Shown: positions 23,082 to 59,921 of the stretch, one piece after another | How the letters are laid out: the number at the start of each line of letters is the position of its first letter | How positions within the stretch are numbered: position 1 is the first letter of the stretch | From: Sacculina carcini | Taxonomy: Eukaryota; Arthropoda; Thecostraca; Sacculinidae | Direction of reading: 5' to 3' | DNA length: 64,000 nucleotides | Assembly (NCBI GenBank): GCA_916048095.2 | Contig: OU696583.1 | Location: 5,471,322 to 5,535,321, forward strand | The notes under the pieces: generated by a model | What the model was told of the DNA's origin: nothing | Database searches by the model: none | Seen by the model: the letters and a program-made list of their open reading frames with translations, nothing else | Program-made: the position numbers and the translations under genes

Positions 23082-23093
23082 GCCGAAATAGCT
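23082..23093 (-). other. Primer-binding site matching tRNA-Phe 5' end (TRIM C)
   Basis: Plus strand reads GCCGAAATAGCT, identical to nucleotides 1-12 of metazoan tRNA-Phe and touching the LTR end. On the element's own strand it is therefore complementary to the tRNA 5' end. Confidence 0.75.
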
Positions 23094-24050: not shown

Positions 24051-24425
24051 TGTATTATGTATATTGTGTATTGCATGGTATTGTGTCTTGTACTATATAT
24101 AATTGTGTGTGCGTGCATGTGTATTTGTGTGCGTACGTGGGAGTGTGATTTTGTGTACGTTGTTGTATGCGCGCGCGGAGGAAGCTGCGTCACACAAGCG
24201 CGAGCGATGAGTGCATGCATGCGCGGGTGGTATCCGCCCGGAGTCAACGGTCACTCGTGCATGTTGGGCAGTGCGTTACTGGTGAAGTGAGAGTGTGGTG
24301 TTTTGTGCAGTGGTTTAGTGTTGTTCGGTGGAGAGAGTAGTATTTAGTGCATTGTGTTGCGGTGTGATTGTGTGGAATTGTGCTTTCTTGTTCTTTTTTA
24401 TTTTCCGTGCTTGCATTCGAATACA

Positions 24426-24437
24426 AGCTAACCGGCC
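24426..24437 (+). other. Primer-binding site matching tRNA-Ile 5' end (element E)
   Basis: AGCTAACCGGCC directly follows the 5' LTR. Its reverse complement GGCCGGTTAGCT equals nucleotides 1-12 of tRNA-Ile(AAU) as I recall it from vertebrates. The same 12 bases occupy the same place in TRIM B. Confidence 0.7.
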
Positions 24438-27400
24438 CTTCGAAAAATGGAGTCTTCATGTGGTTTCGACGCTCGCGTGATACCAGAATTTGATGGTCAG
24501 AGTGACATTGTGGAATGGTGGACTCGCACGGAGATGATGTGTCAGCTCAGAGGCGTCGATGTGATGAGCGTAGTGCCACTACGTCTCTCAAAAGGCGCGT
24601 TTGTTGTGTGGTCCCAACTGCCGGATGAACTTCGCCGTTGTGCGAAAGGGACTCGCAGCGCTTTGTTCTCGGCATTTGGAGTGGACAGATTCCGTGTATA
24701 CGCCCTGTTCACCAGTCGTCGTCTGCAAGAAGGTGAGTCGCCTGACGTATATTTGGCAGACTTAAAAAGCTTGCAGTTTCATTCGGTGGCGTATCCGATA
24801 ATCTGCTGATATGTGCATTTGTAAATGGCCTACCCGAGCACGTGGCGACCAGTATTCGTGCAAGCACAGTGTCAGAGTCTCTGTCGTTGAGTGATATTAC
24901 GAGCAGAACTCGCATGGTGTTGCAAACGACAAAAAGCCCGCCGAACTGTCTAGCCGCCAATGCCGGGTCGCTTTCACCTCGAAAATGCTACATTTGCAAT
25001 CAGACTGGTCATTTGAGAGAGTGCCCCAAAAGGTTATATCGGATGCGATGTTACAATTGTTCCCAGTTGGGTCACATGGCGAAGGACTGTCAGGGAAACG
25101 AGGAAGGAGAGGGTTCGTCAGCGCCAGCACCCTCTCCTCAGTGAGCAATGAGGCGCTTCATTCAGTCACTGTTTTTATTGATCAACGTGAGTCTTGTGTG
25201 CTTGTTGATACCGGTTGTTCTCGCTGTATTGTGTGGAGTGGAGTTTGTAGAGAATGGACACCAGTAACGACTCATGTGAATACCTTGGGTGGCATGAGCT
25301 TTGACTATTCGGGTATTGGTGAATGTTGTGTGAGTGTCGAGAAACAGTCAGTTGTTGTAAAAGCCCTTGTTGTGCAGCACAAGCCGATTGGATATGATGC
25401 GATTCTGAGAATGAACGCCATATCAGCGCTGGGGGGTGTTTGTGTAAGAGCTGGCGGTAGGGTGCATTTTCAAGTGAGTGCCAAGGCCGCATACTGTGCT
25501 GCGGCTGGTGATATTGTTGAGTCAAAACCTGGGCATGAGGCACGGTTTGATGCAGTTAAAAACATGTGGACTTGCAAGTGGAAGTGGCTTGACGACCACG
25601 AGCCTCATCGTTTGACAAACGAAACTGCACAATATCATGTGAGGCAACACGCCAAGGAGGCATTCGACAGAGAGATCAATGAGTGGATCAGCAACAAATG
25701 GTTGATTCCCTATGATGAGAGTTTACATGGGCCTGCCCGTTGTTTGATTCCACTGATGGCAGTAACCCAAAAGAACAAGAACAAAGTGAGACCGGTCCTC
25801 GATTTCCGAGAATTAAATAAACACATTGACACTCGGTCTGCAGATGCTGACGTATGCAATGAGAAGCTGAGGGAATGTCGGATGAATGGAGACAATGTGT
25901 TTATCATGGACCTCAAGAAAGCCTACCTGCAGATATCAGTTGACAGTTCATTGTGGCCTTTCCAGACGGTGAAGTTCAATGGTGTGTTGTACTGCTTGAC
26001 CAGGCTTGGATTCGGGTTGAGTGAGGCGCCCATTATCATGCATACGGTGGTCGACTCGGTGATGGCACAGAACGACCAGATAAGACGAGGGACATCGGCC
26101 TATGTTGACGATGTTCTCATTGACGGAAACATTGTGTCACCCGAAGCGGTGAAGGAGCACTTTGCCAAGTACGGCCTTGAATCGAAAGAGATTCAAAAAC
26201 TCTCTGACGGAACCCGAGTGCTCGGCTTACACGTGTTTTCATCAGAGTCTGGCAAGCTGATGTGGAAAAGGGACAATGCCGTGGGTGAGTTTCCGGAACA
26301 GCTCACGAGACGAGTCGTGTTTTCACTATGCAGCACTGTAGTGTCGCATTATCCTGTCGGTGGCTGGCTGCGAGTTGCCGCTTCGTACATCAAGCGACTT
26401 GCATCCGAAGCGACAAACAGCTGGGACGAACCGATTTGTGACTAGGCACTCCAGAGTCATGTGAACGAAGTGATGTCGAGACTACAGCATAGCGATCCCG
26501 TGAGAGGCGTGTGGAAGATCGATGGTGATTCGGCGAATGTATGGGTAGACGCCAGCAACATTGCCATTGGTGCGTTGGTTGAGGTAAATGGCGAGACAGT
26601 GGAGGATGCTTGCTGGTTGAGAAGGGACAGCCACTACATAAACCTCAGTGAGCTAGAAGCCGTGATAAAGGGGCTTGGACTGGCGATCGAGCTGAAATTT
26701 CGAAAAATTCGGTTTTTCACAGATTCATCCACGGTGCATTTATGGCTCAGATGACTTCTAACGGCAAAAGAACGTGTCAGGACAACTGCCTGTAGTGAGT
26801 TGCTGATCAGGCGCCGACTAGAGATCATCGGTGGATTGTTGGACGAGTACAACTTGACTGTTGAAGTAATGAAGGTGGCGTCTGAGAGGAATAAAGCAGA
26901 TTACCTGACTCATGTGCCTGATCACTGGTTGAAACAGGACAAATCAGTGTGTGCCGCAGGTGCTGAACCGACTGACGTGCGTTCTCGCATCAGGCAGATT
27001 CACCACGACGCCGGACATCCGGGCATCCACCGAACGCGGTACTTTTGCCGGAGGAAAAAGCTTTACGTGAGCAAGCGGGAAGTCGCAGATGTTGTGAGGT
27101 CGTGTGACATCTGCAATTGGATTTGCCCGGCGTCAGTGAAATGGAGACACGGGAAACTGAGCGTGAATCAAAACTGGCACCGACTGGCAGCAGAGTTTGT
27201 GCATGTGCGTAATTTATTCTATGTGTCTGTCATCGATTGTGGTCCTTCGAGGTTTCCTCTCTGGCGCAAGGTTCGCAGTCGCAGCAGCGATGAAGTGGCG
27301 GACATTTTCGATGATATTTTTAGTGAGCGTGGACCCCCAAATGAGGTACTTCTGGACAACAACACGTCTTTTCGTGGATAGTCTTTTGTGCGGGCGATGG

Positions 27401-28355
27401 AACGTTGGGGTGTGAGCATTCGCTATCGGTGTGCTTTTCGCCCAGAAGGAAACGGCATAGCGGAGAGGTCGCATCGGACTGTCAAGACCATTGTGGCGAG
27501 GAAACAGTGCAGTGTGAGAGAGGCTGTGATGCTGCACAATTTGACGCCAATGGATGCCGCCGGTCGCAGACCTGTTGATGGTGTGTATCGATACAGAGTA
27601 CGAATGCGTGAAGAACTCCCGCGACAGCGCAGCACATCTGTTCGTGGCTGCGATTATGAGGTCGGCGATCCTGTCTGGATGAGGCAGCCCGGAGACCGGT
27701 GTGATGCTGTCGGTCGCAGGGGTACCGTCACAAGTGTCGTGTCAGACCTCGTTGTCGCCGTCGATGGCATCAACAGCACGTGGGTGATGTCAGACCACGG
27801 GCGGAGACGGAGAACGGTGGCTGCACGAACGGATTGGACGAGGCGAGCGGTGACGTGGCGGACGATGGCGAGCCTGCCGTCATGGTGTACGGTGAGAGGA
27901 CTGCCGGGACTGATCCGGCGAGTAGCGGTCAGCAGCAGACGCGATCACAGCGACAGAGTCAGCGTCCGGCGCGGTTCAATGATTATGTTGTGTATAATTC
28001 TAATCGGGCATAGTGATTCTTAGAATCAGGGGGATATGTATTATGTATATTGTGTATTGCATGGTATTGTGTCTTGTACTATATATAATTGTGTGTGCGT
28101 GCATGTGTATTTGTGTGCGTACGTGGGAGTGTGATTTTGTGTACGTTGTTGTACGCGCGCGCGGAGGTAGCTGCGTCACACAAGCGCGAGCGATGAGTGC
28201 ATGCATGCGCGGGTGGTATCCGCCCGGAGTCAACGGTCGCTCGTGCATGTTGGGCAGTAGGGCTGGGCAGGAACCGGTTCCGGAACCGGTTCTGACGGTT
28301 CTGCTACGTGGGTATTGGAACCGGGTCCGAGACTCGGAACCGGTTCTGGAACCGG

Positions 28356-28684
28356 GTCCACACGGATCCGAGTCCACACGGTTCCGATTCTTGGACCCGG
28401 GTCCACACGGATCCGAGTCCACACGGTTCCGATTCTCGGACTCGGGTCCACACGGATCCGAGTCCACACGGTTACGATTCTCGGACCCGGGTCCACACGG
28501 ATCCGAGTCCACACGGTTCCGATTCTTGGACCCGGGTCCACACGGATCCGAGTCCACACGGTTCCGATTCTTGGACCCGGGTCCACACGGATCCGAGTCC
28601 ACACGGTTCCGATTCTTGGACCCGGGTCCAAACGGATCCGAGTCCACACGGTTCCGATTCTCGGACCCGGGTCCACACGGATCT
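28356..28684 (+). repeat. 45-base minisatellite inside hAT
   Basis: About seven tandem copies of a 45-base unit made of two related halves (CACACGGATCCGAGTC and CACACGGTTCCGATTC) plus TTGGACCCGGGTC. The unit resembles the subterminal GGAACCGGTTCC motifs of the transposon, so it probably grew from them. Because 45 is a multiple of three, several frames stay open; these are not genes. Confidence 0.93.
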
Positions 28685-30182
28685 TAGTATCAGGACTGAC
28701 AGGAAAATGTATGCGCATTGCGCACACACTACACTAGGGTGCGTTTTAGAATTAACGCTAATATGAAATTGCGGTGAATGCGGTTTTTCACGTGTATTTA
28801 AAAAATGCGTATTATATTGTCTTCTTTTTTCTGAAATACATGTACATTATTTGCAAGTAAGTCTGTGCGGGCAGAGCCATATTACACGAGGTATAATACT
28901 AAATTTAATACATATTATTTATTACGCTTATTTTATTAAATATATTATTAATATATTATTTTTTGGCGTATGATTACCGGAATTTGATTAAATAACCGCA
29001 TTTTCAGCTAATTTGAGCGAAAAAGTATCGCATGAATGTTGATACAACATTTTTATAAATCTGCGTGAAAACTGCATCCTTTCCATGGTGACTTCAATTA
29101 CAATTCAACAATCAAACAAACAAACAACAATAATTTTAAAATCAAAAGCAGCCAATTAAACGCTACACGATCGCAATTTCACGACAAAATGGATGTTTCA
29201 ACTTGACTTCGGGAAAAGGTTTTCTCATTGAATCCAATAAAATATACATTTTCGGAATCAGCATGCAAAAATGTATCTACCGCAACTTGGTACTAGTTAA
29301 ACTTTTGGAAAAGTAAAGAATCCACACATTCTAATGCACACAAGCATACATGACCAAAGCTGTGATCACGGCACATCGATCACATTTGACGTGTCGCCCA
29401 CAAAGAATGTAAAAGCCCATACAGGTGTGAACCAGGCGAGAAAGGTGCCTCCTAAGTTTGTGTTTATCGAACGAAATGTACGTGAAAATCCTGGATGGAA
29501 GTCAGATTGTGTGGACATTGATGAATCCTGTCATATTTGTGTGGAAGCCGTGTTTTCACTCAGAATCTGTTATGACTGAAATCAGCAGGCTGCCTTGGTT
29601 GTACGCGGCTAAGGACAAATAATTTGTCAGTCAAACTGCCAGCGCCAACATCTCAACTAGTGTTTGAGCTGTTTTGTTGAATCTAGTGATGTCCACCGTG
29701 TACACTTGAGTGGTGAGTAAAAATTGTTTTCGCCTTATTTTTATACATTATCATGCATAATTGTTTAATATTATAAATTGTTTGTACTTATTAAAATGGC
29801 GTTTTTATCAATTTCCCTCTTATTTTTTAGTTTCAATTTATTCTTGTAGTGCTCCAACATTAGTAGCGTAGCAGAGGGCCTTAGTGACCTTGCGATTATT
29901 ACGAAAATGTTCACAATATTCATCACTGAATCTAATAATTCACACTCAATGAGGTCGTTAAGGGGAAAATCACTCTTTTATTGAACTCGGCGTATATTTT
30001 ATCATTTAAGCATTTAGTCATATTAATAACTAACATACTTCTTCCCAAATGTAACTTTATTTTAACCCGAGAACGCCCATTATATCGCTAATATGGAATT
30101 GTTGTGAAATTGCCAATATGCCTCGATATAGAACTATTCAAATTCATATTTTTCATATTTTCCATTTCACTTCTCCCGAGAA

Positions 30183-30386
30183 GTGAATCCATTATCATGG
30201 TGGAGGGACCGAGCGTTGTTACTGCCTCGACTACATGAAGTGGCGACAAAATATTTGTGCACACCGGCATCTTCCGTTCCATCTGAACGTTTATTTTCAA
30301 AAGCCGGTGAATGGATATCACACAGACGGAACAGTCTCAAAGAAGAAAACATAAATATGATTCTCTTTTTGAATAAAAATGTGTAA
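30183..30386 (+). pseudogene. hAT transposase C-terminal dimerisation fragment
   Basis: A 67-codon remnant of the hATC domain. It shows the WW near the start (NPLSWWRDRALLLPRL), the conserved VATKYLCTPASSVPSERLFS and AGEWISHRRNSL, and ends LFLNKN. The catalytic RNase H-like core and BED finger are missing. The second copy at 61396-61599 is one residue different (SNAG for SKAG). Confidence 0.9.
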
Positions 30387-31198
30387 TATATACGCGTTTT
30401 GTGTATGTGTGTGTGAACGTGTGCGTTACGGAATAAGCGAACGTTTTCGGGCAATAGCCGAAATCAAATTATTGTTTGTTTGAGATATTATGTAACAGGT
30501 GATACACAAACATTGTTTATATTTGAAAGTACATTGACTATTTAGCACATTTTTGCAGCATTAGCCACATTATTGTGTCAGCATTGTATGCATTTTTCTG
30601 TTGTTAAATATAGAGATGTTAATGCCTTGTACATGTCTTCATTGAATATTAAAGCTTTTCTTCAAATTACAGGGCCGTAGTCAAGAGTTATATGCTTCAC
30701 TCAACCAAAAAAACAAAATGAGGATCCCCCACCAAAATGAAATAATGAAATGTTGAATTTAATTTTGTGAGAATACCCACTATAATGAAACTAATAGAAC
30801 TTTGACTTTGAATAAAATTTTGAATTTATATAAACATTTGTTAATTTCCCAGTCACACGTTCATCTATGCCAACTCTCTTTTGTGTCTTCTCCCTTTGGG
30901 TGATCTCTAAACATGCGCACAGAAAATATATTTTTTCATCCAAGCGGAACCGGTTCCGGAACCGGTTCCAACGGTTCCACTGCCCTACGGATCCGGAACC
31001 GTGAGTATCAATTTTCACGGTTCCTGCCCAGCCCTATTGGGCAGTGCGTTACTGGTGAAGTGAGAGTGTGGTGTTTTGTGCAGTGGTTTAGTGTTGTTCG
31101 GTGGAGAGAGTAGTATTTAGTGCATTGTGTTGCGGTGTGATTTTGTGGAATTGTGCTTTCTTGTTCTTTTTTATTTTCCGTGCTTGCATTCAAATACA

Positions 31199-31845
31199 GT
31201 ACAACAACGGTATGAATCGGGATCAAATAGGAAAAGAGATGGACTGTCAAGTCTGAAGATCAAGAAACGTCAAAATGTTGGTTGTTAAGATTTAGCAATT
31301 GATATTCACCTTAATATATGTGCTACTTGATATTTATGATGTTTTTGGGTACGCAGTAACAGGGCAGGAACCGTAAACATTGATACTCACGGTTCCGGAT
31401 CCGTAAGTCAGACGAACCGTTGGAACCGGTTCCGCTTGGACAAAAAGTGATATTTTCTGTGCGCATAGGTTGGGACCCCTCAATGTTTAGAAGGCACCCA
31501 AGGGGAGAAGACACAAAAGAGAGCTGGCATAGATGAACGTGTTGCTGTGAAAATGTTGTCAAATAGTTTCATAAATTCAAAATTATATGGTTAATTCAAC
31601 GTTTCATCAATATAATTTTTGTGCGGCTTCTCACATTGGTTTTTGGGTGAATGAAGCTGTAACACGCAGCTTTTGAAACCGATTATATTTCCACACAACC
31701 AGTAACACTCACATTTACACACCAAACACTCCCACTCGCACAGCACACATATATCCACTCCCCTTCACTTCATGCTACATTACGCCAAACTACATCAGGT
31801 GTCATCTTGCACGCACACTCAACAACTTCCATACTCATACAGTCC
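31199..31845. other. Non-coding flank with inverted hAT fragment
   Basis: From about 31356 to 31555 the sequence is the reverse complement of the right end of the hAT transposon, starting at a TIR relic (CAGGGCAGGAACCGT) and including CGGAACC motifs and the CTCTTTTGTGTCTTCTCC block. The rest has no gene signal. Confidence 0.75.
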
Positions 31846-32073
31846 ATGAAAGATTATTTGAGCGGACGCAAAATGAGAACATTTGTGAGAGGTGCCAAAT
31901 CGACGTGGAGAGAAGTCACAAGTGGCGTCCCTCAAGGATCAGTGCTTGGACCGATAATGTTCCTGGTGTACATAAATCAAATGACGGAGAGAATAGGCAG
32001 TTACGTGAACATGTTTGCAGATGATGCGAAAATTATGAGAAGAGTGAAAGATCGGACCAGCTGCCAAGAATTG

Positions 32074-33616
32074 TGTAGTTCTAGGTTTTCGTTGTGTGTG
32101 GGCTTATGCTTCTTGTGTTTGCTGGCGTGGTGCTTTGCGCATTGTGTATGTATGTTTGTGTGCGAGTGTGTGTGCATGTACATGTATTGCAGCGAGGAGT
32201 GTGCAAGATTGCAAGTGTCGAGTGTCAGGTGTCGTTGTGGCGTTGGTTCGCTCTGCATGTGTATGTGAGTGTGAGTGCGCGTATGCAATGGTGTCCTTGG
32301 ATTGTCCTCTGAGTTCGTGGAGGGAGTCGTGTTCGGGCGTGTTTGCTGTGCGGTGTTGTCTTGTAGGCGCGCGAGGGATGTCGCTGTCCCACGCGCGCCT
32401 GTCTCTTAATATATCTTTTTCAGTTTTGTTTTGTCAAGTTACAAGCTATTTCGGCCTTTTCAGTGATTTGTTTTTTGTGGTTTTTATGGATAGGCGGTTT
32501 GATTTTGCTTCGGAATAGTGTAGTTTAGTGTAGATTGTTGTAGTTGCTTCGGGAAAGTGTCATGGAATTGATGAATTGACAATGACTTCAGCAGCGGCGG
32601 TGGTACTGACCCTTGGGCATCAGTGGCAAAGTGGAAGACAGAGGTTGTGTTCGGCGGCGTGGCAAGAGGGTGTGCAGGGGGACGGCAGTGGAGCATGGTG
32701 CCGGCAAGGAGGCAGTCGGGGAGCTGCGCCGAGGTTGCTCGTCGTCCCGCCTGCATTGGTGATGGCTACGTCGCAGAACTGGTGAAACAGTCGGTGGAAG
32801 CTGCTGGTGCTCAAGGAGGTAGGCAAGGAGCTGCTGAAGTCGCAGAAGGCGTCGTGGCCCGGAAGGCAAGACGGCTTGTCGAAGGTGGATCACGGCCGGC
32901 TGCGACAGGGTGCTGAAGAGCACAGGTGACGGCGGGAGCACGGTGGGTGCTGGGGCCAAGGTGTTGTGCCCTGTCGCGGCGGCCGGTGATGAAGAAGACG
33001 GCAGGTTGCGGCGGAGCACTGAAGAGCACGGGCGAGGCGGGAGCGCGGGGGACGCTGGGGCCTGACGTATTGGCTTCGCCGCAACCAAGGTGTGTTTCTG
33101 GTGGAGCCGTCGAGCTGGATGGGCGGGTCGGAGCTGATTGTGTTTGGTTGTTTCTTTGTATATCTCCGTGATTGTGCTCGCTTTTTATTTTTTGTTGCTG
33201 TGTTGGCGTTTTTTCATATGTTTGTTTCTTAAGAAACAGGGGGAGGTGTAGTTCTAGGTTTTCGTTGTGTGTGGGCTTATGCTTCTTGTGTTTGCTGGCG
33301 TGGTGCTTTGCGCATTGTGTATGTATGTTTGTGTGCGAGTGTGTCTGCATGTGCATGTATTGCAGCGAGGAGTGTGCAAGATTGCAAGTGTCGAGTGTCA
33401 GGTGTCGTTGTGGCGTTGGTTCGCTCTGCATGTGTATGTGAGTGTGAGTGCGCGTATGCAATGGTGTCCTTGGATTGTCCTCTGAGTTCGTGGAGGGAGT
33501 CGTGTTCGGGCGTGTTTGCTGTGCGGTGTTGTCTTGTAGGCGCGCGTGGGATATCGCTGTCCCACGCGCGCCTGTCTCTTAATATATCTTCTTCAGTTTT
33601 GTTTTGTCAAGTTACA
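32074..33616 (+). mobile_element. TRIM family A, complete
   Basis: LTRs 32074-32443 and 33247-33616 (370 bases each, TGTAG...TTACA, about five differences). Target copy AATTG at 32069-32073 and 33617-33621. The internal 803 bases lack gag, protease, RT or integrase. They are GC-rich and related to the internal parts of families B and C (shared GGTGTTGTGCCCTGTCGCGG). A purine tract AACAGGGGGAGG precedes the 3' LTR. LTR hairpins at 32366-32399 and 33539-33572 are followed by AATATA, a possible poly(A) signal variant. Confidence 0.92.
32444..32455 (+). other. Primer-binding site matching tRNA-Phe 5' end (TRIM A)
   Basis: AGCTATTTCGGC abuts the LTR. The reverse complement GCCGAAATAGCT is nucleotides 1-12 of tRNA-Phe. 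No TGG-starting site matching a tRNA 3' end is present here. Confidence 0.8.
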
Positions 33617-33924: not shown

Positions 33925-36900
33925 TGTAGTGTGAAGTGGAGATGCTTGCGCATTAAGGCATTTGTATCAGCTGACTGTTTGCGGTGCAGTGTGTTGAGGC
34001 GTGGCTTATAGCCTGCGCGTGCGGGTAGCCTGCGTGTACGTGTGTGCGAGCGTGCATGTATGCTTGTGTGTGAACTTGCAGGCGTTGATGACGTATTGGC
34101 GTATTGTTTTCTGATTGGTTGATTATTGGATGAATGTACAAACGATCGCCTGCATCGGGCGATTCTCAACGCGTGAACTGGAGAGTGAATGTTGGGGAGT
34201 GTTTGTGAAGCGTGCGGCGGTGTTGCGTTGTGTTGAAATGGGATTTACGGCGGTCGCGGTGGTTTATTGAGTGGTTCGTTCACTCACGGGTTATTGTTAC
34301 CCGGTGGTTTATTGAGTCGTTTGTTCACTCACGGGTTACTGTTATCTTTTGTTATTATCTAAGTATTTATATTCGTTCAGTCATTCCGAGTTTATTCGAG
34401 ACTGTAATTACACGTTTCCTAATTTCTGGTTGTCTACCGAGACATGACGGAGAACGAAGCAACAATGACGGTTGCGGGGAATGCGGAACTACAAGCTATT
34501 TCGGCCGCAAGTAATGTGGCTTTCGACCTGAGGCTGGTGCCGGAGTATGACGGCAAAAAGGACCCCACAGAATGGCTCAGCAAAGTTCGGAAAATGTGTC
34601 GACTCCGAGGCGTGCGCGATGTGGCCCAAGTTGTTGGGATGAGAGTTACAGGTGATGCATATGCTGTCGTGGACTGCCTCCCCGATGTGGAACAGCTGGA
34701 CCTTGAAAAAGTGGAGCAAGCTCTTCAGACCGCGTTTGGCATGGATACTTTCGGAGCGTACGACGCTTTTGTGGGGCGAAGATTGAGCGAAGGTGAGTGT
34801 GTCGATGTGTTGCTGTCCAACCTGCGCAGACTGGGAGCCAGGTGCAATATAACCGACCCAGTCTCAATAAAATGTGCTTTCGTCTCAGGGATCCCACAGA
34901 CGGTGCGACATGTCCTCAGGGCGAACGCCAAACTCGACGCTATGACGCTGACCGAAGTCGTGGACAGGACAAGGGTGATTTTGTCAGAAGCGACCCACAC
35001 CGTTAACACTGGACTGGCTGCTCGTTCGACAACGCGTGATTACGACCAGCAGATAAAACCCTTCAAGTGTTTCTTGTGTAACCAAGCCGGGCATTCCGCG
35101 CGTTATTGCTCTCGCCGAAAAAATGGCCCTGGAAAAGGGAGAACTGGGCCCACGTGTTTCAAGTGTGGTGAAATCGGGCATATCTGTTCACGCTGTCCGG
35201 AAAACGGCCAAGGAGGGGAGACGTAGGTGCCAGTCTCTTCTCCTCTACCGAAACGGCGCCGATGGTCACCACTCGTGTGTTAGTCAACGACGTTCAGTGC
35301 CTTGCGTTAGTTGACACTGGATGTACTAGGAGTATAATATCGGAGTCGTTGTGCAGAGGGCTGGCGGAATTTCATGGTGAGTCGTTGTTGACTATTAGCG
35401 GAGCTCAGATGATATGTCAGGGTAGTTGGCCAGCGCAGATCGCGGTGGACGGAGGCAAGGCATTCGAGCTCAGCGTGCTGGTGGTGAAGCACCGGCCAGC
35501 CGGTTTTGATTTCATTCTCGGACTTGACGGTATTGTGGCAATGGGTGGCATGATGTTGGACTCGAGGCGGAAACTGACGTGGGGAGTAGAAGATGCACTT
35601 GCTCAGCGGGAACTGTGTGCTGCGGCAGCAGCGAATGGGAAAGGTGTGGGTGGTGGATGTGAGCTTGAGGGCAAAGACTTTGTGGCATATTTCGATGCAA
35701 ATAAAAACTCGTGGAGAGTGAAGTGGAAGTGGTCGCAACGTCCGAGTGTGCTGACGAACCGGACGGCTGAATATGCGATTGCTCCACATGCCCGCGATGA
35801 GTACCGGTCAGAGCTACAATCTTGGATTGACGCCGGATGGCTCGTTGAATACGATGAACGCGCTCATGGGCCAGTAAGAGGACTCATCCCACTCATGGCA
35901 GTCAGCCAAAAGAATAAATCCAAAGTCAGGCCGGTGATGGACTTTCGCCAATTAAATCAATTCGTGGAAATACATACGGCGGATGCTGACGTCTGCCATC
36001 ACAAACTCAGAGAGTGGAGGAGGCGGGGCGACCGTATAGCCTTGTTGGATCTGACGCGCGCCTATCTCCAGGTTGAAGTCGAGCCTGCACTCTGGTGTTA
36101 CCAAACAGTAATAATATCTAACAAGCGATATTGTCTGACTCGGTTGGGGTTCGGGCTAAGTGCGGCTCCTATCATAATGAAAGAGATCGTCAACTTCGTG
36201 TGTAAGCAAGATCCAAATGTCGACAGAGCAGCTTCATCGTACATTGACGACATTCTTGTCGATGAGTCTGTGTTGAGCGCAGATGAAGTGAGCAAGCATA
36301 TCTCCAGATATGGGCTGACCTGTAAAACCGCATTGCGGGCCGACCCCTCATGTCGTGTACTGGGTCTGAGCGTTCGGCGACAGCAGAACGGATTGGCGTG
36401 GAGCAGGGATAATCCTATACCACCAATTAATGGGCCAATGACTCGCAGGTCGGTGTTTTCGTTGTGCGGCCGTCTGGTTGCTCATCTACCGGTGGCTGGA
36501 TGGTTAAGACCTGCTGCTTCCTGGATGAAGCGGTGTGTGAATTCTGTGACTCAAGGATGGGATGATGTCGTTGATGACCGGTCTGTGGAGAACAAAATTT
36601 CAAATGTCATTAACAGACTCAAGAATGAAGATCCAGCGCGGGGAGTATGGCGGGTGACCGGAGAAGAGGTAACTGTGTGGACTGATGCCAGCGCGATTGC
36701 TCTCGGAGTGGTGTTGGAGACTAAGGACTCGGGAGTAATCGAGGACGCATGCTGGCTTCGTCGAGATGAAGTCACTCATATCAACATGGCCGAGCTGGAC
36801 GCTGCCATCAGAGGTATCAACATGGCCGTTTCGTGGGGTATGAAGGTGATAGACCTCCGCACGGATTCTGCAACTGTTCACCATTGGATTGGTGATGCAC

Positions 36901-38849
36901 TGAGCGGTCGTACCAGGCTCCGGACAAAAGCGCATGGCGAAATGCTGATACGACGGAGAGTGTGTCTCATCAAACAGATGGTGGATGAACTCGGATTACG
37001 AGTGAAGGTGCGGCTGGTTCGATCCGCCGAAAATTTGGCAGATGCTCTCACGCGTGTGCCAACCAGTTGGCTTGTCAGCGAATCAACAGCTGTAGGCGCG
37101 GCAGCTGCGGCTCCAGCAGTCCGTGGCTCAGTCGCCGAGGATATTGTAAACATTCATGAGCGAGCAGGGCATCCAGGAATACGTCGAACATTATTTTTTG
37201 CCAAACGTGACCTCGCTAGACCTGTGAAGCGATCGGATGTACGCGAGGTGGTTCGTCGTTGTGATGTATGCAACGCTATCGATCCGGCACCGGTCAAATG
37301 GCGACACGGCGCGCTGAGCGTTGCTGATATCTGGAGTCGCCTGGCCATTGACGTTACTCATTACGACAATCAGTCGTACCTGACTGTCGTTGACTGTGGC
37401 CCTTCGCGGTTTAGCTTGTGGAGACAACTGCGTGCGGCCGACAGTTATCAGGTCATACAGCACTTGGAGAGGATATTTTTTGAGAGAGGTGCACCAGCTG
37501 AACTACTTTGCGACAACGATACAGTTTTCAGAAGTCGGTCGTTTGCGGCGCTTGCAGCACAGTGGAGCATCAAGCTTCGTTTCAGAGCGGCGTATGCTGC
37601 AAGTGGGAATGCGATTGTTGAGCGCAATCATAGGACCGTGAAAGTCATTGCTGCTAGAAAGGGTTGCAGCATCACTGAGGCTGTTCATTTATATAACGTC
37701 ACGCCTCGCGACGGAGAGACTGGAGACAGTGCACCAGCCAATTGTGTCTACAACTATAGAGTACGAGACTACGCGAGACCTCGGGTTAACCAGCCAAGAG
37801 AAGGAGAGATTTCCGGTAGTGGGCGGTCTAGATTCACGACTGTTGACGCAGTATGGGTTCGTCAGCGTGGGACCAGATGCACCGAGCGGTCGGCACAAGG
37901 AGTGGTAAGTGGTGTTGTGTCTGAGCAGGTGGTCGAGGTTGACGGTGTGCCGCGTCATGTCCGAGATCTTCGACGCAGGAACGAGCATGGCGTGGAAGCC
38001 GAGCCACCCGACGATATGTCATCAACCAACGACTCTCCGCTGTGGGTCGGTGGTCCCGTGTCCCACTCCACTTCCAATGCAGATGTGGCTGGACGAGCTT
38101 CATCGTCAGTACATGAGCGAGTCGACGCTGTTGGAGTTCATGATGATGCAGCACGTCCAGAAGTTGATGTTGATAGACGGGAACCGACGACCGTGCCAGC
38201 CGAAGGCGTTCAGAGAGGGGCGCGGGTACGGCGACCACCTCCCCGGTGTTTATGTTGTGATCTTGGAGATCAGGGTGGGGTGTAGTGTGAAGTGGAGATG
38301 CTTGCGCATTAAGGCATTTGTATCAGCTGACTGTTTGCGGTGCAGTGTGTTGAGGCGTGGCTTATAGCCTGCGCGTGCGGGTAGCCTGCGTGTGCGTGTG
38401 TGCGAGCGTGCATGTATGCTTGTGTGTGAACTTGCAGGCGTTGATGACGTATTGGCGTATTGTTTTCTTATTGGTTGATTATTGGATGAATGTACAAACG
38501 ATCGCCTGCATCGGGCGATTCTCAACGCGTGAACTGGAGAGTGAATGTTGGGGAGTGTTTGTGAAGCGTGCGGCGGTGTTGCGTTGTGTTGAAATGGGAT
38601 TTACGGTGGTCGCGGTGGTTTATTGAGTGGTTCGTTCACTCACGGGTTATTGTTACCCGGTGGTTTATTGAGTCGTTTGTTCACTCACGGGTTACTGTTA
38701 TCTTTTGTTATTATCTAAGTATTTATATTCGTTCAGTCATTCCGAGTTTATTCGAGACTGTAATTACACGTTTCCTAATTTCTGGTTGTCTACCGAGACA
38801 TGACGGAGAACGAAGCAACAATGACGGTTGCGGGGAATGCGGAACTACA
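33925..38849 (+). mobile_element. LTR element D, autonomous, looks whole
   Basis: LTRs 33925-34493 and 38281-38849 (569 bases each, about three differences, so recent). Target copy CAGAT at 33920-33924 and 38850-38854. Gag opens at 34444, inside the LTR, and runs to 35226 with two CCHC knuckles (CFLCNQAGHSARYC, CFKCGEIGHICSRC). Pol runs 35262-38285: protease (ALVDTGCTRSI), RT (SYIDDILVDE), RNase H (VWTDASAIALG), integrase (HHCC finger with CDVCN, DDE stretch CDNDTVF). The pol stop TAG is supplied by the first bases of the 3' LTR (TGTAG). Domain order is Ty3/gypsy-type, but the RT is distant from CsRn1 and Mag. Confidence 0.92.
34494..34505 (+). other. Primer-binding site matching tRNA-Phe 5' end, inside gag frame (D)
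   Basis: AGCTATTTCGGC directly after the 5' LTR, identical to TRIM A and C. It is translated as part of gag (L-Q-A-I-S-A-A), because gag begins in the LTR. Confidence 0.78.
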
Positions 38850-41160: not shown

Positions 41161-42416
41161 TGTGATAGATTAGTACTGGATATTGTGTATGAATGACTAT
41201 TTTGTATGAGCGTGAGTGAAGGTGCTGTATGTGTATATGAGCGTGCGTTTGAATGGTGGATTGTTCGGTTTGCTGACTGCGCGTGCCACGTGGTGGCGTC
41301 ATGTTTTCTGGGAGTCGTTGTGTGAGCGTCGTGGAGTGTGTGTCGGTGTGCGGTGTCTTGTGGGCGCGCGTGGGGCTGCAATGCCCCTGCGCGCCCGTCT
41401 TTTAATACATCTTGTTTTTGTTCATTATGTCTGCTTTTACAAGCTAACCGGCCTGTAACAAGCCATTTCGGCTATTTCATTTCGGTTTGAATGAAGTTTT
41501 GGTGAAATTTGAATTCGTTGAAAATTTGGTTCCGGCTTCAGCAGCAGTGGTGATGCCTTCAGCACCAGGGGAGGACAGCAGCAGTGGAGGTTCTCAGTGG
41601 CGTGTCAGCAGCGTGTTGTAGGGACGGCGGTGAAGCATGATGCCGGCTGGAGGCAGCGGGGAAGCTGTGGCGGATCATGCTCACTCCGTCCGTATTGGAG
41701 CTGGACACGTCGCTGAGCTGGCGGTGGAAGCTGCTGGTGCTGGAGGGCTGGTGGAGCGAGAGCTGCTGAAGCCGGGGATCTGGAAGAAAGAAAAGCGAGA
41801 CGACGTGGTCTGTGTGGACGGCGGTCTCGGCTAGCTGCGGCAGGGTGCTGAAGAGCACTGGGGTCGAGGTGTTGTGCCCTGTCGCGGCATCCGGTGATGT
41901 AGAAGACGGCAGGCTGCGGCGGAGCACTGAAGAGCACGGGCGGAAGCGGGAGCGCGGTCGACGCTGGGGCTAGCCGTGTTGTGCTTCGCCGCAGTCATGG
42001 TGCGCGCCTGCTGGAGGTCGTGGAGTCGGAAGTCTTTGTCCTGTTCATTCCTTGTTTAATTTTATTCCGCGTTTATTTTTCGGCTTGTATTTTCAGTTCA
42101 ACTTTCAGTTTTGTTTCCTGAGAAACAGGGGGAGATGTGATAGATTAGTACTGGATATTGTGTATGAATGACTATTTTGTATGAGCGTGAGTGAAGGTGC
42201 TGTATGTGTATATGAGCGTGCGTTTGAATGGTGGATTGTTCGGTTTGCTGACTGCGCGTGCCACGTGGTGGCGTCATGTTTTCTGGGAGTCGTTGTGTGA
42301 GCGTCGTGGAGTGTGTGTCGGTGTGCGGTGTCTTGTGGGCGCGCGTGGGGCTGCAATGCCCCTGCGCGCCCGTCTTTTAATACATCTTGTTTTTGTTCAT
42401 TATGTCTGCTTTTACA
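41161..42416 (+). mobile_element. TRIM family B, complete and young
   Basis: LTRs 41161-41441 and 42136-42416 (281 bases each, identical by eye) with target copy TTTTG at 41156-41160 and 42417-42421. The internal 694 bases have no retroviral-type genes but match the internal parts of A and C (GGTGTTGTGCCCTGTCGCGG, CGGCAGGCTGCGGCGGAGCA). The LTR sequence differs from A and C apart from the GC hairpin (41362-41396, 42337-42371) and TTTTAATACATC after it. The primer site is the tRNA-Ile type, followed by a relic of the tRNA-Phe type. Confidence 0.93.
41442..41472 (+). other. Double leader: tRNA-Ile 5' site then vestigial LTR end plus tRNA-Phe site
   Basis: AGCTAACCGGCC (41442-41453) abuts the LTR and matches tRNA-Ile nucleotides 1-12. 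Immediately after comes TGTAACA (41454-41460), like the LTR end of families A and C, and AGCCATTTCGGC (41461-41472), the tRNA-Phe site with one change. Confidence 0.75.
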
Positions 42417-51690: not shown

Positions 51691-52033
51691 CAAAATAATT
51701 GTTGTTGTTATTTTCGTCAGGCGCTTCCTACATCATGACATCATGCAAGTAACGATATACGCCCAGACCAATTATTAAATTGAGCAATGCCAATGAACAA
51801 GAAAAAAACCGACAACAACAACAAAAGAGATGTAAAAGTGAAAGTGATGTAAAAGACACACAAGAGTCACACAAAAACACGTATACCACAGAAAAACGAA
51901 TAATATTGGTGTGGGCTCAAGAATATATGCACACATCCAAAAGATATTTATATAATTTGCTGCTGAAAGATTTATAGGAGTTGGAAGATGTAATTGAACG
52001 CGGAAGTTTATTAAACTAGCCATATTACACAGA
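51691..52033. other. Non-coding flank between L2 and duplication copy 2
   Basis: AT-rich sequence, no gene recognised. Its last bases repeat a short piece of the following sequence: GCCATATTACAC occurs at 52018-52029 and again just inside copy 2. Confidence 0.5.
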
Positions 52034-53053
52034 GCCATATTACACGAGGTATAATACTAAATTTAATACATATTATTTATTACGCTTATTTTATTAAATA
52101 TATTATTAATATATTATTTTTTGGCGTATGATTACCGGAATTTGATTAAATAACCGCATTTTCAGCTAATTTGAGCGAAAAAGTATCGCATGAATGTTGA
52201 TACAACATTTTTATAAATCTGCGTGAAAACTGCATCCTTTCCATGGTGACTTCAATTACAATTCAACAATCAAACAAACAAACAACAATAATTTTAAAAT
52301 CAAAAGCAGCCAATTAAACGCTACACGATCGCAATTTCACGACAAAATGGATGTTTCAACTTGACTTCGGGAAAAGGTTTTCTCATTGAATCCAATAAAA
52401 TATACATTTTCGGAATCAGCATGCAAAAATGTATCTACCGCAACTTGGTACTAGTTAAACTTTTGGAAAAGTAAAGAATCCACACATTCTAATGCACACA
52501 AGCATACATGACCAAAGCTGTGATCACGGCACATTGTTAACTACACTTGTTAAGTACGGTTAAACATGCATAGAAAACAATTAGTAAATCAGCTATATAT
52601 TACATTCACACATTACATAACATTAATACATAATTACAATAACGAAACAATACAATAAGATACGATACCCGCAGCGGCTGAACACGAATACGCGGGGAGC
52701 ACGAATAAGTCGCGGGAACACAATGAAGCGAGCGAACAACTCTAGCACTGTGTGACAACACGCACTATTCTCGACTGCCTTGTCCAACACCTGTAGCACC
52801 GGCCGGAATACCTTCACTCCAAGTAGGACACCGGTCACGTGACCGTCTGGAAGGTGCCGTGCGATGTCTGAGCAAACAGTCGTGTGAATTGTCGCGGGGA
52901 ATAGCGGGACTACGATCGTCGTGGGTGGTGTGAACACACAGTAGTACTTCCGCCGGCTTGCGTGGAGAATGGGCAGCGCACACAGGCGGCTCAGACAGAC
53001 AGACACAAGCACACAGGCGGCGCGGATATACAGCGCGACACAAACACGACATA

Positions 53054-53110
53054 GCCAGACGGCGATGACATAGCCAGACGGCGATGACATAGCCAGACGG
53101 CGACGTAAAC
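53054..53110. repeat. 19-base tandem repeat in LTR of G
   Basis: Three copies of GACATAGCCAGACGGCGAT-type units here; two copies in the other LTR (about 58573-58610). The whole length difference between the LTRs is this one unit. Confidence 0.9.
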
Positions 53111-56100
53111 ACACGGCGCAAATAGGTGACGAAAATATCACATCCGGTGGTGTGCACGGTGCGAACATACATACAATCATATTGCGAAGTGTGTAAATTT
53201 ATACAATGAAATGAATTTATGTAATGAAACAAACACGCAACGAATATAACGCAAACACACGCAAAACATAAACATGCAACGCATAAACTAAAATAATACA
53301 ACGACAATCAATACAAAAGAAACATGTGTGTGTGAATAAGTGTGTACGCCACAGGAGCCCCCTCCTCAGATCAGGGCGAGAAACGAACAGGTGGCCTGAT
53401 GCGTCGGCCTGATCGAGAATGAATGTGTTGTGGCGTTGCTGTGTCACCGGATAATTGTTGCTCTGCTGGACGTGTACCAGCATGTTGTTGTGGCACTGGA
53501 ACCGCGAACAATGTGCTATCTGTCTCCGGCGTTGGCTGTATATTGTTGTCAATGAAGGCTGGTCGCAGTCGGTCAATGTTGACGACATCTGAGCCATTGC
53601 GTTCAATGGTGTACGTCTTCGGTGTTCTGTTGAGCACCTTGTACGGCCCGTCGTACACCGGCTGCAATGGACGGCGATGACCGTCGTGCCGCACAAACAC
53701 GAAGTCGGCCGAATCCAGCGCAGGCAGCTTGAAGACTGCTTTGTCGACAGGTCTCGGCTGCTGTGGTCTCACGGAGCTGAAATGCTGAGAGAGCTGTCTT
53801 GCAAACTCACACGCGTTGGTTTTGTTAGTATTTGTGTGGAAAAATTCGCTAGGAAGATGAAGTTTGGCACCGTAAACAAGTTCAGCACAGGAACAATTGA
53901 GTGGTTCTTTAATACAGGCTCTGATACCTAATAGAACAATTGATAATCTGTCAACCCAATTTATGCACCCTCGTAAAGCGCTTTTCAATTGTCGGTGCAG
54001 TCTCTCGACCATTCCGTTTGCCGCAGGATGGTAAGCGGTAGTGAAACGGATATGAGCCCCTAAACGATTATTAATTTCTCGCCACAAGTTTGAAGTGAAC
54101 TGACTACCCCTGTCAGACACTATAGTAGCTGGCACACCGAAACGGGATATCCACGTGGATACGAAATATCGAGCAATAGTTTCAGCTGATACATCAGGTA
54201 TCGGACATGCCTCAGGCCATCTAGTAAAGCGATCAACAATTGTCAGAATATACTGGCAATTTTGCGAGTACGGTAGCGGACCTACTATATCTACATGGAT
54301 GTGTTCGAATCTCCGTGATGGTGGTTGAAATTGGGCAGCAGGTGACGAATTGTGTCGTGAGACCTTCGATTGTTGACACTGTAAACAAGTGCGTGTCCAA
54401 CTAGCAACGTCTTTGCGCATGTTCGGCCAAACAAACCGTTCAGCTATAAGCTTGAGCGTGGCGGTTCGACCCGGGTGAGACATATTGTGAAGTGACTGGA
54501 AAACACGCCTACGCATTGCTTCAGGCACAAAGGGGCGTGGCTTGTCTAAGGACGTGTCGCACAGGAGTTTGCGGTCGGAAATGGCGGGAAATTCAATCCA
54601 CTGCAACTTTAAACTACCCGCTGAATCGATTAAATCGGACTGGGCTTGCTGTGATTCTGCCATATCTCTGATATTAACACTTGGTAAATCACTGCAAGAA
54701 CATATTCTAGATAGAGCGTCTGAGACAACATTGTCTTTACCACTGATGTGACGCACATCTGACGTAAATTGCAGGATAAAATCCAAATGACGCTGCTCAC
54801 GTGGTGAATGATTAGCTGTGGGTGCTCTAATAGCGTGCACAATAGGTTTGTGGTCGGTGAAGATGATAAATTCACGACCCTCCAAGTATGGACGAAAATG
54901 ACGCACCGATAAGTAAACAGCAAGTACCTCGCGACCAAAAGCGCTATACATTGTTTGAGCGGAGTTGAGCTGCTTAGACCAAAAGGCTAATGGCTGCCAG
55001 ACACCGTCACTCAGTTGTTGTAGTACAGCACCTATACTTGAATTGCTGGCGTCAGTGAATAACCCAAGTTGAGCTGATTCGTTCTGATGGCAAAGGATAG
55101 TAGCTGAGCTGAGAGCGGCTTTACTCTCATCAAATGCTTGCTCTGCCTCATCTGTCCACACGACAGGCACCTTGGAGCGCTTGGCGTTATTTGTCAGCAA
55201 ACGATGGAGGGGCGCGAGAAGAGTCGCGGCGTTCGGCAAGAAACGATGATAAAAATTCACCATGCCTAAATACCTGCGCAATTGTTGGTGCGAAACAGGA
55301 CGTGGGTATTCGGTGATAGCCTTCGTTGCACCGTCATGCGGTGAGATGCCGCGTTCGGTGATTCTGTGACCTAAAAAGGTTATTTCGCGCTTGCCAAAAA
55401 CACATTTCTCGATATTAATCTTAATATCATGTGCATGTAACCGATCAAAAACTATATCTAAATGTCTCAAATGCTCGGTTTCTGATTTGCTAGCAATCAA
55501 AATATCGTCAATGTAGACGAATATGAAATCAAGTCCTCGAAGAATTGTATCCAGCAGACGCTGCATGGTTTGCGCGCTGTTACGCAAGCCAAAAGGCATT
55601 CGCAGCATTTCAAAGGATCCAAAGGGTGTACAAATGGCAGTCTTTGAAATATCTTGTGGATATACAGGCACTTGAAAGAATGCTTTCACCAGATCTATTT
55701 TGGTGAATATGTTGGTTCCGTGCAGAGCTGCTGTAAAATCTTGTAAATAGGGAATTGGATATCTATCGGGTACTGTGATATTATTGAGAGCTCTGTAGTC
55801 TCCGCATGGCCTCCATTCGCCATCTCGCGCTTTTGGCACCAAGTGTAGGGCAGACGCGTACGGACTCTGGCTAGGGCGTATTATACCTTGATCGAGCATG
55901 CGTTGGAACTCATCTTTGGCTATCTTAAGCCTGGCCGCATCAAGCTTTCGCGGGCGGCAAAAAACAGGCTTTCCTCGTGTTTGAATGCGATGAAAAACGC
56001 CATGATTAGATGTACTAGTAAATACCATTGGAGACAACAACCCAGGGTACTTTGACAGTAAATCTACATACACTTTGTCGTGCTGAGGAGCGCACACTGA

Positions 56101-57689
56101 AATATTGAGCGAGTTCCGGCGAGTTATGCCTGTGGCTTTCAAACCGGTTTCGCCGTCCACAATTTGACGTTCACGTGGGATAACGTTGATATTGTGGTGA
56201 GAGAGGAAGTCGATACCAATGATGGCTGTGTCAATATCGGCAATTATAAAGGTCCAGTGAAAATTGCGTCTGAGACCTAAAGACATGCAGGTAGAAATAC
56301 TTCCGTAGGTGTTGATGCGAGATGAATTCACAGCTTGTAGCACCAAGGGAGATTTCACTGGCTGTGAAGCAGTGGAGCTACGCACCAGTTTGCATTTGGC
56401 GGGCAATAAACTATATTGAGCGCCAGTGTCGATGAGAAAATTGCAGCCTGTTGTTGGATCGCGGATATAAAATGGTAAAGAATTGTCGCCTTGGATGGAT
56501 GATGTGAGGGGTGAAATAGGCGATCTTTCACGCCCTCCGTTCAGTTTAAATGAAACGAACAGGGTTTCACACAAGTGTGAGCTTTATCACCGAATTTCCA
56601 GTGATACCAGCAGTATTTCTTGTCTGGTGGTGCACTGTGCTCACCTGTTGTCTGTTCTCCGGATGCGGCAGATTTTCGCGGAGATTTGGTGCGTTGGGTG
56701 CGTGATTGCCGCTCTGAAGAATTTGCGCGACTACGCGACGTTCGCTGTTCGGTTGACAATCTGCTGAGCATTCGCTGAATTTCATTTAGCTGCTGTTTGA
56801 TTGTCTTTAGCTCTTCCATGTTTTGCTGAGCTTGAGTGCAAGTAGTATCAGCGGCGGCTTCAGAACACTGTACCCTGTTTATTGCTGCCTTGGCGCGTGG
56901 CATGGCAGAAATAATTCTATCTGCCGTACCTACCAGTGTGTCAAGCAGAGTGTCGTCGGGAAAAAACTGCAAGAAAGGCATTACGTCCTCAGGCATGCCC
57001 TTCAAAAATATTTGTCTCAGCAAAGGTGACTCACCGTCTTTGACATACGGCCGTGTCAATTCTTGGAGATGCCGTAGATACTGGCTGGGACGACGGTCTC
57101 CGAGCTCTTGTGATTCCAGCACTGAGCGTAGTTTCTGTTCAGTCGTCTTGCCTAAGCGAGCCTGCAGAGCCTGACAAAGCTGCGTGTAAGCATCGGCTGG
57201 CGGCTGTCGAATCATGTCGATAAATTCCATCACATGATGGGGAGGCAGAAGAGACGCTGCAGTTTGAAAACGAAGCATGTCGTCTGTTATTTGAGCCCTA
57301 GCGAAATACAGATCCAGCTGAATAACCCATATGTGTGGGTGTTCTTCTACAAAAGCAGGAGGCGGGCCCATAACGGCTGTCTGTTGGGTTTGTTTGTCAC
57401 CTGTAGACTGACGAGCGGCGGCAGATTCGCTGGTAGATATGACTTGGCTGGTAGACTGAGTGTCGCTGGCTGACTGATTGTCGCCTTTGCTGGCGTGCTT
57501 CTTTGAAGATTTAGACTGACTGTCCATCTCCAGGCTAATTCAACCAGAATCGAAAAAACGCAGTAGGTTAAGCGCAGATGTGTACCAAAACGATACGCCG
57601 TTCGCAAGTAAGTAGTACGCTCGAATGCAAGAACGCACGGTATAATACAAGATTATACAAGATATATAATACAATATTAAATAAAAACC

Positions 57690-57870
57690 AAGATGCAAGA
57701 TAAGCCAATACACGATGTAAGCCAAGACGCGATGTAGGCCAAGACGCGCAAGATAAGCCAAGACGCAACACAAGGCAATACGCGCAAGATAAGCCAAGAC
57801 GCGCAAGATAAGCCAAGACGCAACACAAGGCAATACGCGATACAAGGCAAGACGCGCAAAAATCAAGACC
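57690..57870. repeat. Minisatellite in the leader of element G
   Basis: Imperfect tandem copies of a roughly 18-32 base unit around GATAAGCCAAGACGCGCAA in the untranslated stretch between the primer site and gag. The interval 57528-58059 holds no gene; it is the element's 5' leader. Confidence 0.85.
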
Positions 57871-59849
57871 AAGATCGAGATCGAAGATCAAGACTCATGA
57901 TGTAAGATTCTAGTGTACCTGTAAAACCTGTAAAAGTTGGTTAATGCGTGAAGTAGCTGTTACTACAACCACTGTTAGTGGTCAGTTGTTAGCGAGGTCA
58001 CCACTTGTTAAACACGGTGTCCGCATATAATACAATTCAATCACGTCGGGGTCACCACTTGTTAACTACACTTGTTAAGTACGGTTAAACATGCATAGAA
58101 AACAATTAGTAAATCAGCTATATATTACATTCACACATTACATAACATTAATACATAATTACAATAACGAAACAATACAATAAGATACGATACCCGCAGC
58201 GGCTGAACACGAATACGCGGGGAGCACGAATAAGTCGCGGGAACACAATGAAGCGAGCGAACAACTCTAGCACTGTGTGACAACACGCACTATTCTCGAC
58301 TGCCTTGTCCAACACCTGTAGCACCGGCCGGAATACCTTCACTCCAAGTAGGACACCGGTCACGTGACCGTCTGGAAGGTGCCGTGCGATGTCTGAGCAA
58401 ACAGTCGTGTGAATTGTCGCGGGGAATAGCGGGACTACGATCGTCGTGGGTGGTGTGAACACACAGTAGTACTTCCGCCGGCTTGCGTGGAGAATGGGCA
58501 GCGCACACAGGCGGCTCAGACAGACAGACACAAGCACACAGGCGGCGCGGATATACAGCGCGACACAAACACGACATAGCCAGACGGCGATGACATAGCC
58601 AGACGGCGACGTAAACACACGGCGCAAATAGGTGACGAAAATATCACATCCGGTGGTGTGCACGGTGCGAACATACATACAATCATATTGCGAAGTGTGT
58701 AAATTTATACAATGAAATGAATTTATGTAATGAAACAAACACGCAACGAATATAACGCAAACACACGCAAAACATAAACATGCAACGCATAAACTAAAAT
58801 AATACAACGACAATCAATACAAAAGAAACATGTGTGTGTGAATAAGTGTGTACGCCACAACATCGATCACATTTGACGTGTCGCCCACAAAGAATGTAAA
58901 AACCCATACAGGTGTGAACCAGGCGAGAAAGGTGCCTCCTAAGTTTGTGTTTATCGAACGAAATGTACGTGAAAATCCTGGATGGAAGTCAGATTGTGTG
59001 GACATTGATGAATCCTGTCATATTTGTGTGGAAGCCGTGTTTTCACTCAGAATCTGTTATGACTGAAATCAGCAGGCTGCCTTGGTTGTACGCGGCTAAG
59101 GACAAATAATTTGTCAGTCAAACTGCCAGCGCCAACATCTCAACTAGTGTTTGAGCTGTTTTGTTGAATCTAGTGAGGTCCACCGTGTACACTTGAGTGG
59201 TGAGTAAAAATTGTTTTTGCCTTATTTTTATACATTATCATGCATAATTGTTTAATATTATAAATTGTTTGTACTTATTAAAATGGCGTTTTTATCAATT
59301 TCCCTCTTATTTTTTAGTTTCAATTTATTCTTGTAGTGCTCCAACATTAGTAGCGTAGCAGAGGGCCTTAGTGACCTTGCGATTATTACGAAAATGTTCA
59401 CAATATTCATCACTGAATCTAATAATTCACACTCAATGAGGTCGTTAAGGGGAAAATCACTCTTTTATTGAACTCGGCGTATATTTTATCATTTAAGCAT
59501 TTAGTCATATTAATAACTAACATACTTCTTCCCAAATGTAACTTTATTTTAACCCGAGAACGCCCATTATATCGCTAATATGGAATTGTTGTGAAATTGC
59601 CAATATGCCTCGATATAGAACTATTCAAATTCATATTTTTCATATTTTCCATTTCACTTCTCCCGAGAAGTGGCTCCTCTGTGGTGTAATCGTGTGTAGT
59701 GAGAGAGAGTGTGTGTGTGTGAAAGATTGTGAGTGCGTGAACGTGTTAGTGTGTCTATGTGTGATCGTGTATAGTTGAATTGTATATTGCGTGCGAGAGT
59801 GTGTGAGCGAGTGTCTATAGCTGTGTCGGTGAGTGTGTGCAGTTGTTTC

Positions 59850-59850
<1 letters not shown>

Positions 59851-59921
<71 letters not shown>
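59851..59921. repeat. (GT)n microsatellite in TRIM C LTR
   Basis: Pure GT run of about 35 units. Similar runs occur at about 60012-60053, 61043-61120 and 61211-61249. They account for most of the LTR length variation. Confidence 0.93.

Follow-up and report, generated by a model that had tools for sequence, protein, structure and literature searches.

Candidate primer sites complementary to the first 12 nucleotides of host tRNAs in LTR retrotransposons and TRIMs of Sacculina carcini

Three types of primer, namely tRNA 3' ends, half tRNAs and self-priming, are named in a survey of plant LTR retrotransposons (PMC6317226). The known reaction closest to the one considered here is that of Tf1, the first 11 bases of which are described as pairing next to the LTR, with RNase H cutting between bases 11 and 12 (PMC7175516), and Tj1 is reported to be self-primed like Tf1 (PMC4600332). 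The elements described below resemble Tf1 and Tj1 in that a very short 5'-terminal RNA segment would pair at an LTR-adjacent site, but the primer of Tf1 and Tj1 is their own mRNA, whereas the site here fits a host tRNA. In half-tRNA priming, reported for copia, Ty5, Osser, Bianca and fungal Helenus, a 3'-truncated tRNA likewise serves as primer (PMC10886601, PMC6317226). In those Copia elements, however, pairing involves a half tRNA or the region of the anticodon loop, whereas nucleotides 1-12 are matched here and the integrase follows the reverse transcriptase (RT); neither an anticodon-region site nor an integrase before RT, the marks of Ty1/copia half-tRNA priming, was found in the present elements.

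Canonical Ty3/gypsy elements and retroviruses share with these elements a site directly after the 5' LTR, a purine-rich tract before the 3' LTR, TG...CA termini and 5-bp target site duplications (TSDs), but the site here has no TGG start and matches the 5' rather than the 3' end of the tRNA. Animal TRIMs (PbTRIM, ta-TRIM, animal Helenus and bivalve TRIMs) are similar in being short, non-coding and thought to be moved by coding elements. The published sites of these TRIMs match tRNA 3' ends, of tRNA-Leu in PbTRIM (a D. melanogaster tRNA) and ta-TRIM and of various tRNAs in animal Helenus (PMC10886601 among the sources), and no tRNA could be assigned to the bivalve primer sites. The initial annotation of the DNA studied here had supposed that a site for a tRNA 5' end was undescribed, and none was found in the accessible portions of the full-text literature, outside subscription journals and Repbase Reports; the sites reported there correspond to tRNA 3' ends, half tRNAs or anticodon loops, self-priming, or are unassigned.

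The window analysed here is a stretch of 64,000 nt from contig OU696583.1 of the Sacculina carcini assembly GCA_916048095.2 (264 Mb, 43 contigs). The 12-mer AGCTATTTCGGC was present exactly in all four places claimed for it, as putative primer sites of the tRNA-Phe type: in the first copy of TRIM A (32444-32455, +), in the coding element D, where it also lies inside the gag frame (34494-34505, +), in TRIM C (60191-60202, +) and in a reversed copy of TRIM C (23082-23093, -). A fifth exact copy (63657-63668, +) was located within a near-identical second copy of TRIM A. When up to two mismatches were allowed, 14 matches were found in the window, compared with 3.98 ± 1.66 in shuffled sequences (largest 8). 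Genome-wide, the exact 12-mer occurs 2021 times, and the same letters reversed, used as a control, occur 5 times.

The sites follow the 5' LTRs of TRIM A (LTRs at 32074-32443 and 33247-33616, +; TSD AATTG), element D (33925-34493 and 38281-38849, +; TSD CAGAT) and TRIM C (59680-60190 and 60872-61392, +; no TSD seen). Paired LTRs with TG...CA ends are present in TRIMs A, B and C and in the coding elements D and E of the window. TRIMs A, B and C are short and non-coding and have LTRs and a primer site, as is characteristic of TRIMs; the sole TRIM A frame of 250 amino acids or more (32811-33578, -) had no Pfam match. Blocks of 505, 813 and 2609 bp, of which the 2609-bp block includes TRIM A, recur with 99.6-100% identity between 28872-32787 and 52030-64000, a pattern suggestive of a recent segmental duplication that was interrupted by the insertion of an element.

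We take AGCTATTTCGGC to be the complement of nucleotides 1-12 of animal tRNA-Phe, a highly conserved stretch that presumably reads GCCGAAATAGCT. A host tRNA-Phe gene would then be expected to show GCCGAAATAGCTC. No such gene was found in the assembly with five patterns and one BLAST search; other tRNA genes are present (Lys called, Tyr-like seen, Ile(AAT) confirmed). Two tRNA-Phe-like pieces were found, both inside retrotransposon sequence. One (L009:1501-1535, -) covers nucleotides 38-72 of tRNA-Phe (94%) and continues into the internal region of a TRIM, as part of an inverted arrangement; the other (L010:1501-1530, -) covers nucleotides 38-67 (100%) beside retrotransposon sequence. Both start just past position 37, a hypermodified base in tRNA-Phe, and the first has a mismatch at position 58, where the mature tRNA carries a methylated A. 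This is suggestive, at two loci, of copies of mature tRNA-Phe made by the RT of an element. The assignment of the 12-mer to tRNA-Phe is based on the conserved animal sequence and on these two pieces, which match the 3' half of tRNA-Phe.

A Phe-type sample was made up of the first 40 listed AGCTATTTCGGC places on contig C1, 20 retrieved with 7.2 kb and 20 with 462 bases. CA directly preceded the 12-mer in 39 of the 40 copies and ACA in 36, the exception being L038, with ACT. A genome search for LTR pairs followed by the 12-mer had been proposed, and a second LTR aligned up to the base before the 12-mer in 12 of the 20 long loci, with partner identities of 89.9-100%, 11 of them at 97% or more. 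The alignment stopped two bases before the 12-mer in L038 and fifteen before it in L042, and the partner of L048 ran past the end of the retrieved sequence. The 7.2-kb stretches of L039, L049, L051, L052 and L057 contained no visible LTR partner; in L039 (1201-1221) a partial inverse of the 12-mer comes after it (AGCTATTTCGGCCAAATAGCT), so that a hairpin could form. A canonical primer site, starting with TGG and complementary to a tRNA 3' CCA end, was not present at the LTR edge of the carriers examined. Ordinary TGG sites had also been claimed for three other elements of the window, F, G and H; they lie at the LTR edge in F and G, and in H the site is one base beyond the edge.

A second set of sites, absent from the initial annotation, matches a second tRNA. 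The 12-mer AGCTAACCGGCC adjoins the 5' LTR of the coding element E (site 24426-24437, +; LTR 24051-24425, +; 3' LTR split into 28037-28258 and 31037-31198; TSD GTACA) and is the complement of nucleotides 1-12 (GGCCGGTTAGCT) of the host tRNA-Ile(AAT). A tandem array of 45-bp units, with copies 94-96% alike in the middle register, occupies 28302-28733. Genome-wide, AGCTAACCGGCC occurs 402 times, including at least 10 places that are the start of a tRNA-Ile gene, compared with 22 for the reversed control. The counts of the two 12-mers are about 400-fold and 18-fold above their controls, and a chance origin of the 12-mers is ruled out by them. In a sample of 20 places, which like the Phe sample were all on contig C1, 18 followed ACA and 2 were tRNA-Ile genes. 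GGCCGGTTAGCTCAG occurs in the genome at ten exact places and two with one mismatch; the eight exact places other than the two in the sample were fetched, and ARAGORN called a tRNA-Ile(AAT) gene in all eight, each starting GGCCGGTTAGCTC.

Further tRNAs sharing UAGCUC, namely those for Lys, Ala/Cys and Tyr, made up a test set, and their 12-mers had 1, 1 and 2 matches after ACA in the genome (controls 0). The presence of UAGCUC in Ala and Cys tRNAs is assumed here. Not every tRNA with UAGCUC is therefore used.

The 40 Phe and 18 Ile sites fell into 21 groups by flank similarity (single linkage), two of which mix Phe and Ile sites. When each group was represented by a single site (15 Phe, 6 Ile), the two bases before the site were CA in 20 of 21, and position 13 after the site was any of three bases among the Phe groups and of all four among the Ile groups. 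The shared block thus stops at the position that would face the first nucleotide of the tRNA. At the other side, pairing ends at the LTR edge, as had been stated, the last base of the LTR being A and the tRNA continuing with C13. The 12 bases do not vary freely between copies at the LTR edge, a point on which the initial annotation had made its proposal depend; because the 12-mers were searched as exact strings, their own invariance is not evidence, and the evidence lies in the copy number, the preceding CA and the fact that conservation ceases at position 13.

The two types of site occur together in TRIM B (LTRs at 41161-41441 and 42136-42416, +; TSD TTTTG). Its sequence reads, in order, TTTTACA, the Ile 12-mer (41442-41453, +), TGTAACA and the Phe 12-mer with one change (AGCCATTTCGGC; 41461-41472, +). 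The Ile site adjoins the LTR end of the window copy, and TTTTACA is the 3' end of the LTR both in this copy and in L230 (TSD AGAAA). In three solo LTRs (L226, L227 and L228), by contrast, the LTR extends 19 nt beyond the Ile-site end to TGTAACA, the Phe position, and the flanking duplications are AAATG, CGGTA and GTAAT, respectively. The short 3' LTR end was also seen in L229, for which the duplication was not identified. The duplications of this family were read from printed flanks; TSDs of 5 bp were found for A, B, D and E in the window and for L226, L227, L228 and L230. The first base copied from the primer fixes the 3' end of an LTR. Both LTR ends occur in TRIM B, and the copies therefore record priming at either site. 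As far as sequence comparison can tell, each 12-mer would set the start of minus-strand DNA, and TRIM B is the strongest evidence for this.

The shift of the LTR end with the site also bears on the reading that the 12-mer is only a tether or packaging signal and that priming takes place elsewhere from an ordinary tRNA 3' end. For such a role speaks TGGTGCCG, which we take to be complementary to the 3'-terminal 8 nt of tRNA-Phe, CCA included, and which 6 of the 25 elements inspected contain downstream of the site: TRIM A (+241), TRIM C (+146) and D (+30) in the window, and L043, L050 and L056. It is missing in the other 19, though, and its distance from the site ranges from 30 to 1338 nt, so that no tRNA 3'-end site is found nearby at a constant place, in line with the initial annotation. 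Together with the LTR end, which adjoins the 12-mer and in TRIM B shifts along with it, this makes a pure tether very unlikely. A second contact with the tRNA through TGGTGCCG, in addition to priming at the 12-mer, is conceivable.

Self-priming of the Tf1 type, in which the RNA of the element would pair with the site through its own 5' end, would agree with the length and position of the site, the paired segment of Tf1 being given as 11 nt (PMC7175516). In L056 an 11-nt upstream match was indeed found when G-U pairs were allowed, a length reached by 1 of 60 shuffles. Yet the Watson-Crick runs within 400 nt upstream of the site were 4-6 nt in 20 of 20 elements, as in shuffled sequence, and 19 of the 20 were unremarkable with G-U pairs. 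Self-priming was rejected for the lack of a consistent self-match in this region of the 20 elements, and we consider it highly improbable.

Element D encodes a gag frame with a zinc knuckle, which starts from its first ATG within the 5' LTR (34444-35226, +), and a pol frame (35172-38285, +) with protease, RT, DUF7047, RNase H and integrase. The matches of the protease and RT were below the Pfam curated cut-off and those of the other domains above it. The integrase follows RT-RNase H, which is the order of Ty3/gypsy elements (Metaviridae). Solved RT structures matched the D-type RT weakly (best E 0.0013). The RNase H in the pol frame of D matches RVT_3, and those of F, G and H fit RT_RNaseH models instead.

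Element E retains a piece with RT and DUF7047 (25567-26445, +) that is 47% identical to D. With the RT of D as query, matches of 41-66% identity were obtained in 11 of the 20 long loci and in E, and none was reported for F, G or H in that search. DUF7047 was detected in all eight pieces tested (four families) as well as in D and E, and was not found in F, G and H. The coding carriers thus appear, from their sequences, to share one RT clade with DUF7047. A literature search returned no paper on DUF7047 or PF23088. There were 797 protein relatives of the D RT piece, and the named ones among the matches listed (120 of 797) came from Amphibalanus, Petrolisthes, Trichuris and Trichinella.

The gag frame of D, having opened in the 5' LTR, continues across the primer site (34444-34505), which is thereby also coding (A-I-S-A), and QAISA is read across the site in the gag frames of D and L048. 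Among 23 Gag relatives, 9 had LQAISA near the start, between flanks that were unlike, one (P0137) had KLFRP, which corresponds to the same DNA in another frame, and 13 had neither; this count is biased, as all three rows of the alignment used as query hold QAISA, the 7996 candidates sharing most words were scored, and proteins rather than DNA were compared. The site is apparently translated within the Gag frames of relatives from other sources. DNA of these relatives in other genomes was not found in two protein scans of viral contigs and one scan of genome contigs; in the scan of viral contigs for CAAGCTATTTCGGC, at least 120 stretches matched.

The reading of A-I-S-A inside gag in D and L048 could mean that the 12-mer is kept for Gag coding, or that it is a motif shared by chance and unconnected with tRNA. 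The chance of either is close to negligible. The TRIMs keep the 12-mer without a coding frame of a known domain, on which ground Gag coding was rejected as the cause, and a chance motif is at odds with the genome counts and with an Ile set that fits the start of a second tRNA.

L060 is a mosaic. Within the 250 bases upstream of its site it matches an LTR of the L044 type (98%, 154 nt) and then the final 105 nt of the LTR of TRIM C (97%), and after the 12-mer it matches the internal region of L044 (98% over 198 nt). Such a mosaic is expected if strong-stop DNA made from TRIM C RNA jumped to the RNA of a coding element, and suggests that TRIM C and the coding element share particles. The Gag starts of L056 (Phe) and L204 (Ile) are alike and their 12-mers differ, which we read, from these sequences, as a probable primer switch. 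Such switches would be possible because both 12-mers start with AGCTA, which pairs with the shared nucleotides 8-12 of the two tRNAs.

The initial proposal, a primer from the tRNA 5' end with its 3' end at nucleotide 12, has withstood the sequence tests applied and is extended by the Ile set, TRIM B, the L060 mosaic and the site in the Gag frame. The 12-mer is very probably a minus-strand primer site, the primer being nucleotides 1-12 of a tRNA, mostly tRNA-Phe and in some elements tRNA-Ile(AAT), in a clade of coding LTR retrotransposons and the TRIMs that they would mobilise. Its role as the putative start point of minus-strand DNA is well supported, and nucleotides 1-12 as the likely primer are strongly supported for tRNA-Ile, checked against host genes, and for tRNA-Phe, by sequence.

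In the proposed mechanism, an intact tRNA would anneal through its 5' end, and its acceptor and D stems would be displaced in the process; the predicted energies of the 12-nt duplexes are -18.7 and -23.1 kcal/mol. An RNase would then cut between U12 and C13. A cut between nucleotides 12 and 13 is required because the primer needs a 3' OH at U12, which lies in the D stem of the intact tRNA, and cleavage after U12 may be inferred on this basis. We know of no enzyme that cuts tRNA after nucleotide 12. The most likely candidate would be the RNase H of the element, acting on the RNA duplex as in Tf1. The freed 12-nt RNA, ending in GCCGAAAUAGCU-3' or GGCCGGUUAGCU-3', would be extended, and plus-strand DNA would copy the 12 nt and run off at the tRNA 5' end, so that an exact 12-nt site would be rebuilt in each cycle.

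The primer might also derive from a longer, pre-existing 5' tRNA fragment, such as an anticodon-cleaved half, which would be trimmed to nucleotide 12 on the template, and the element would then make no first RNase H cut. Precedents are the 3'-truncated tRNAs reported to prime copia and its relatives (PMC10886601) and the 5' tRNA-Phe halves of about 35 nt described in flies (PMC7038984). The paired block, by contrast, is nucleotides 1-12 and not the 3' end of a half, with no sequence sign of nucleotides 33-37, and we regard this origin of the primer as unlikely.

For the wider family, we lean, by a small degree, towards the view that the whole DUF7047-RT clade, including the relatives in barnacle, porcelain crab, Trichinella and Trichuris, primes from the 5' 12 nt of an intact host tRNA, cut in place from the RNA-RNA duplex by its own RNase H; the use of tRNA-Phe would be old, with repeated switches to tRNA-Ile. 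If this is true, a 5'-terminal 12-nt tRNA primer would be a fourth type of primer, in which cutting like that of Tf1 is tied to a host tRNA, and a tRNA cut after nucleotide 12 is predicted. It may also help to explain elements without a recognisable primer site, as 5'-end sites may be missed because the usual search targets the complement of the tRNA 3' end. Ordinary elements are reported to be targeted by tRNA 3'-end fragments (PMC7472051); in such a tRNA-fragment defence, 3' fragments would miss the sites described here, and 5' fragments would match them.
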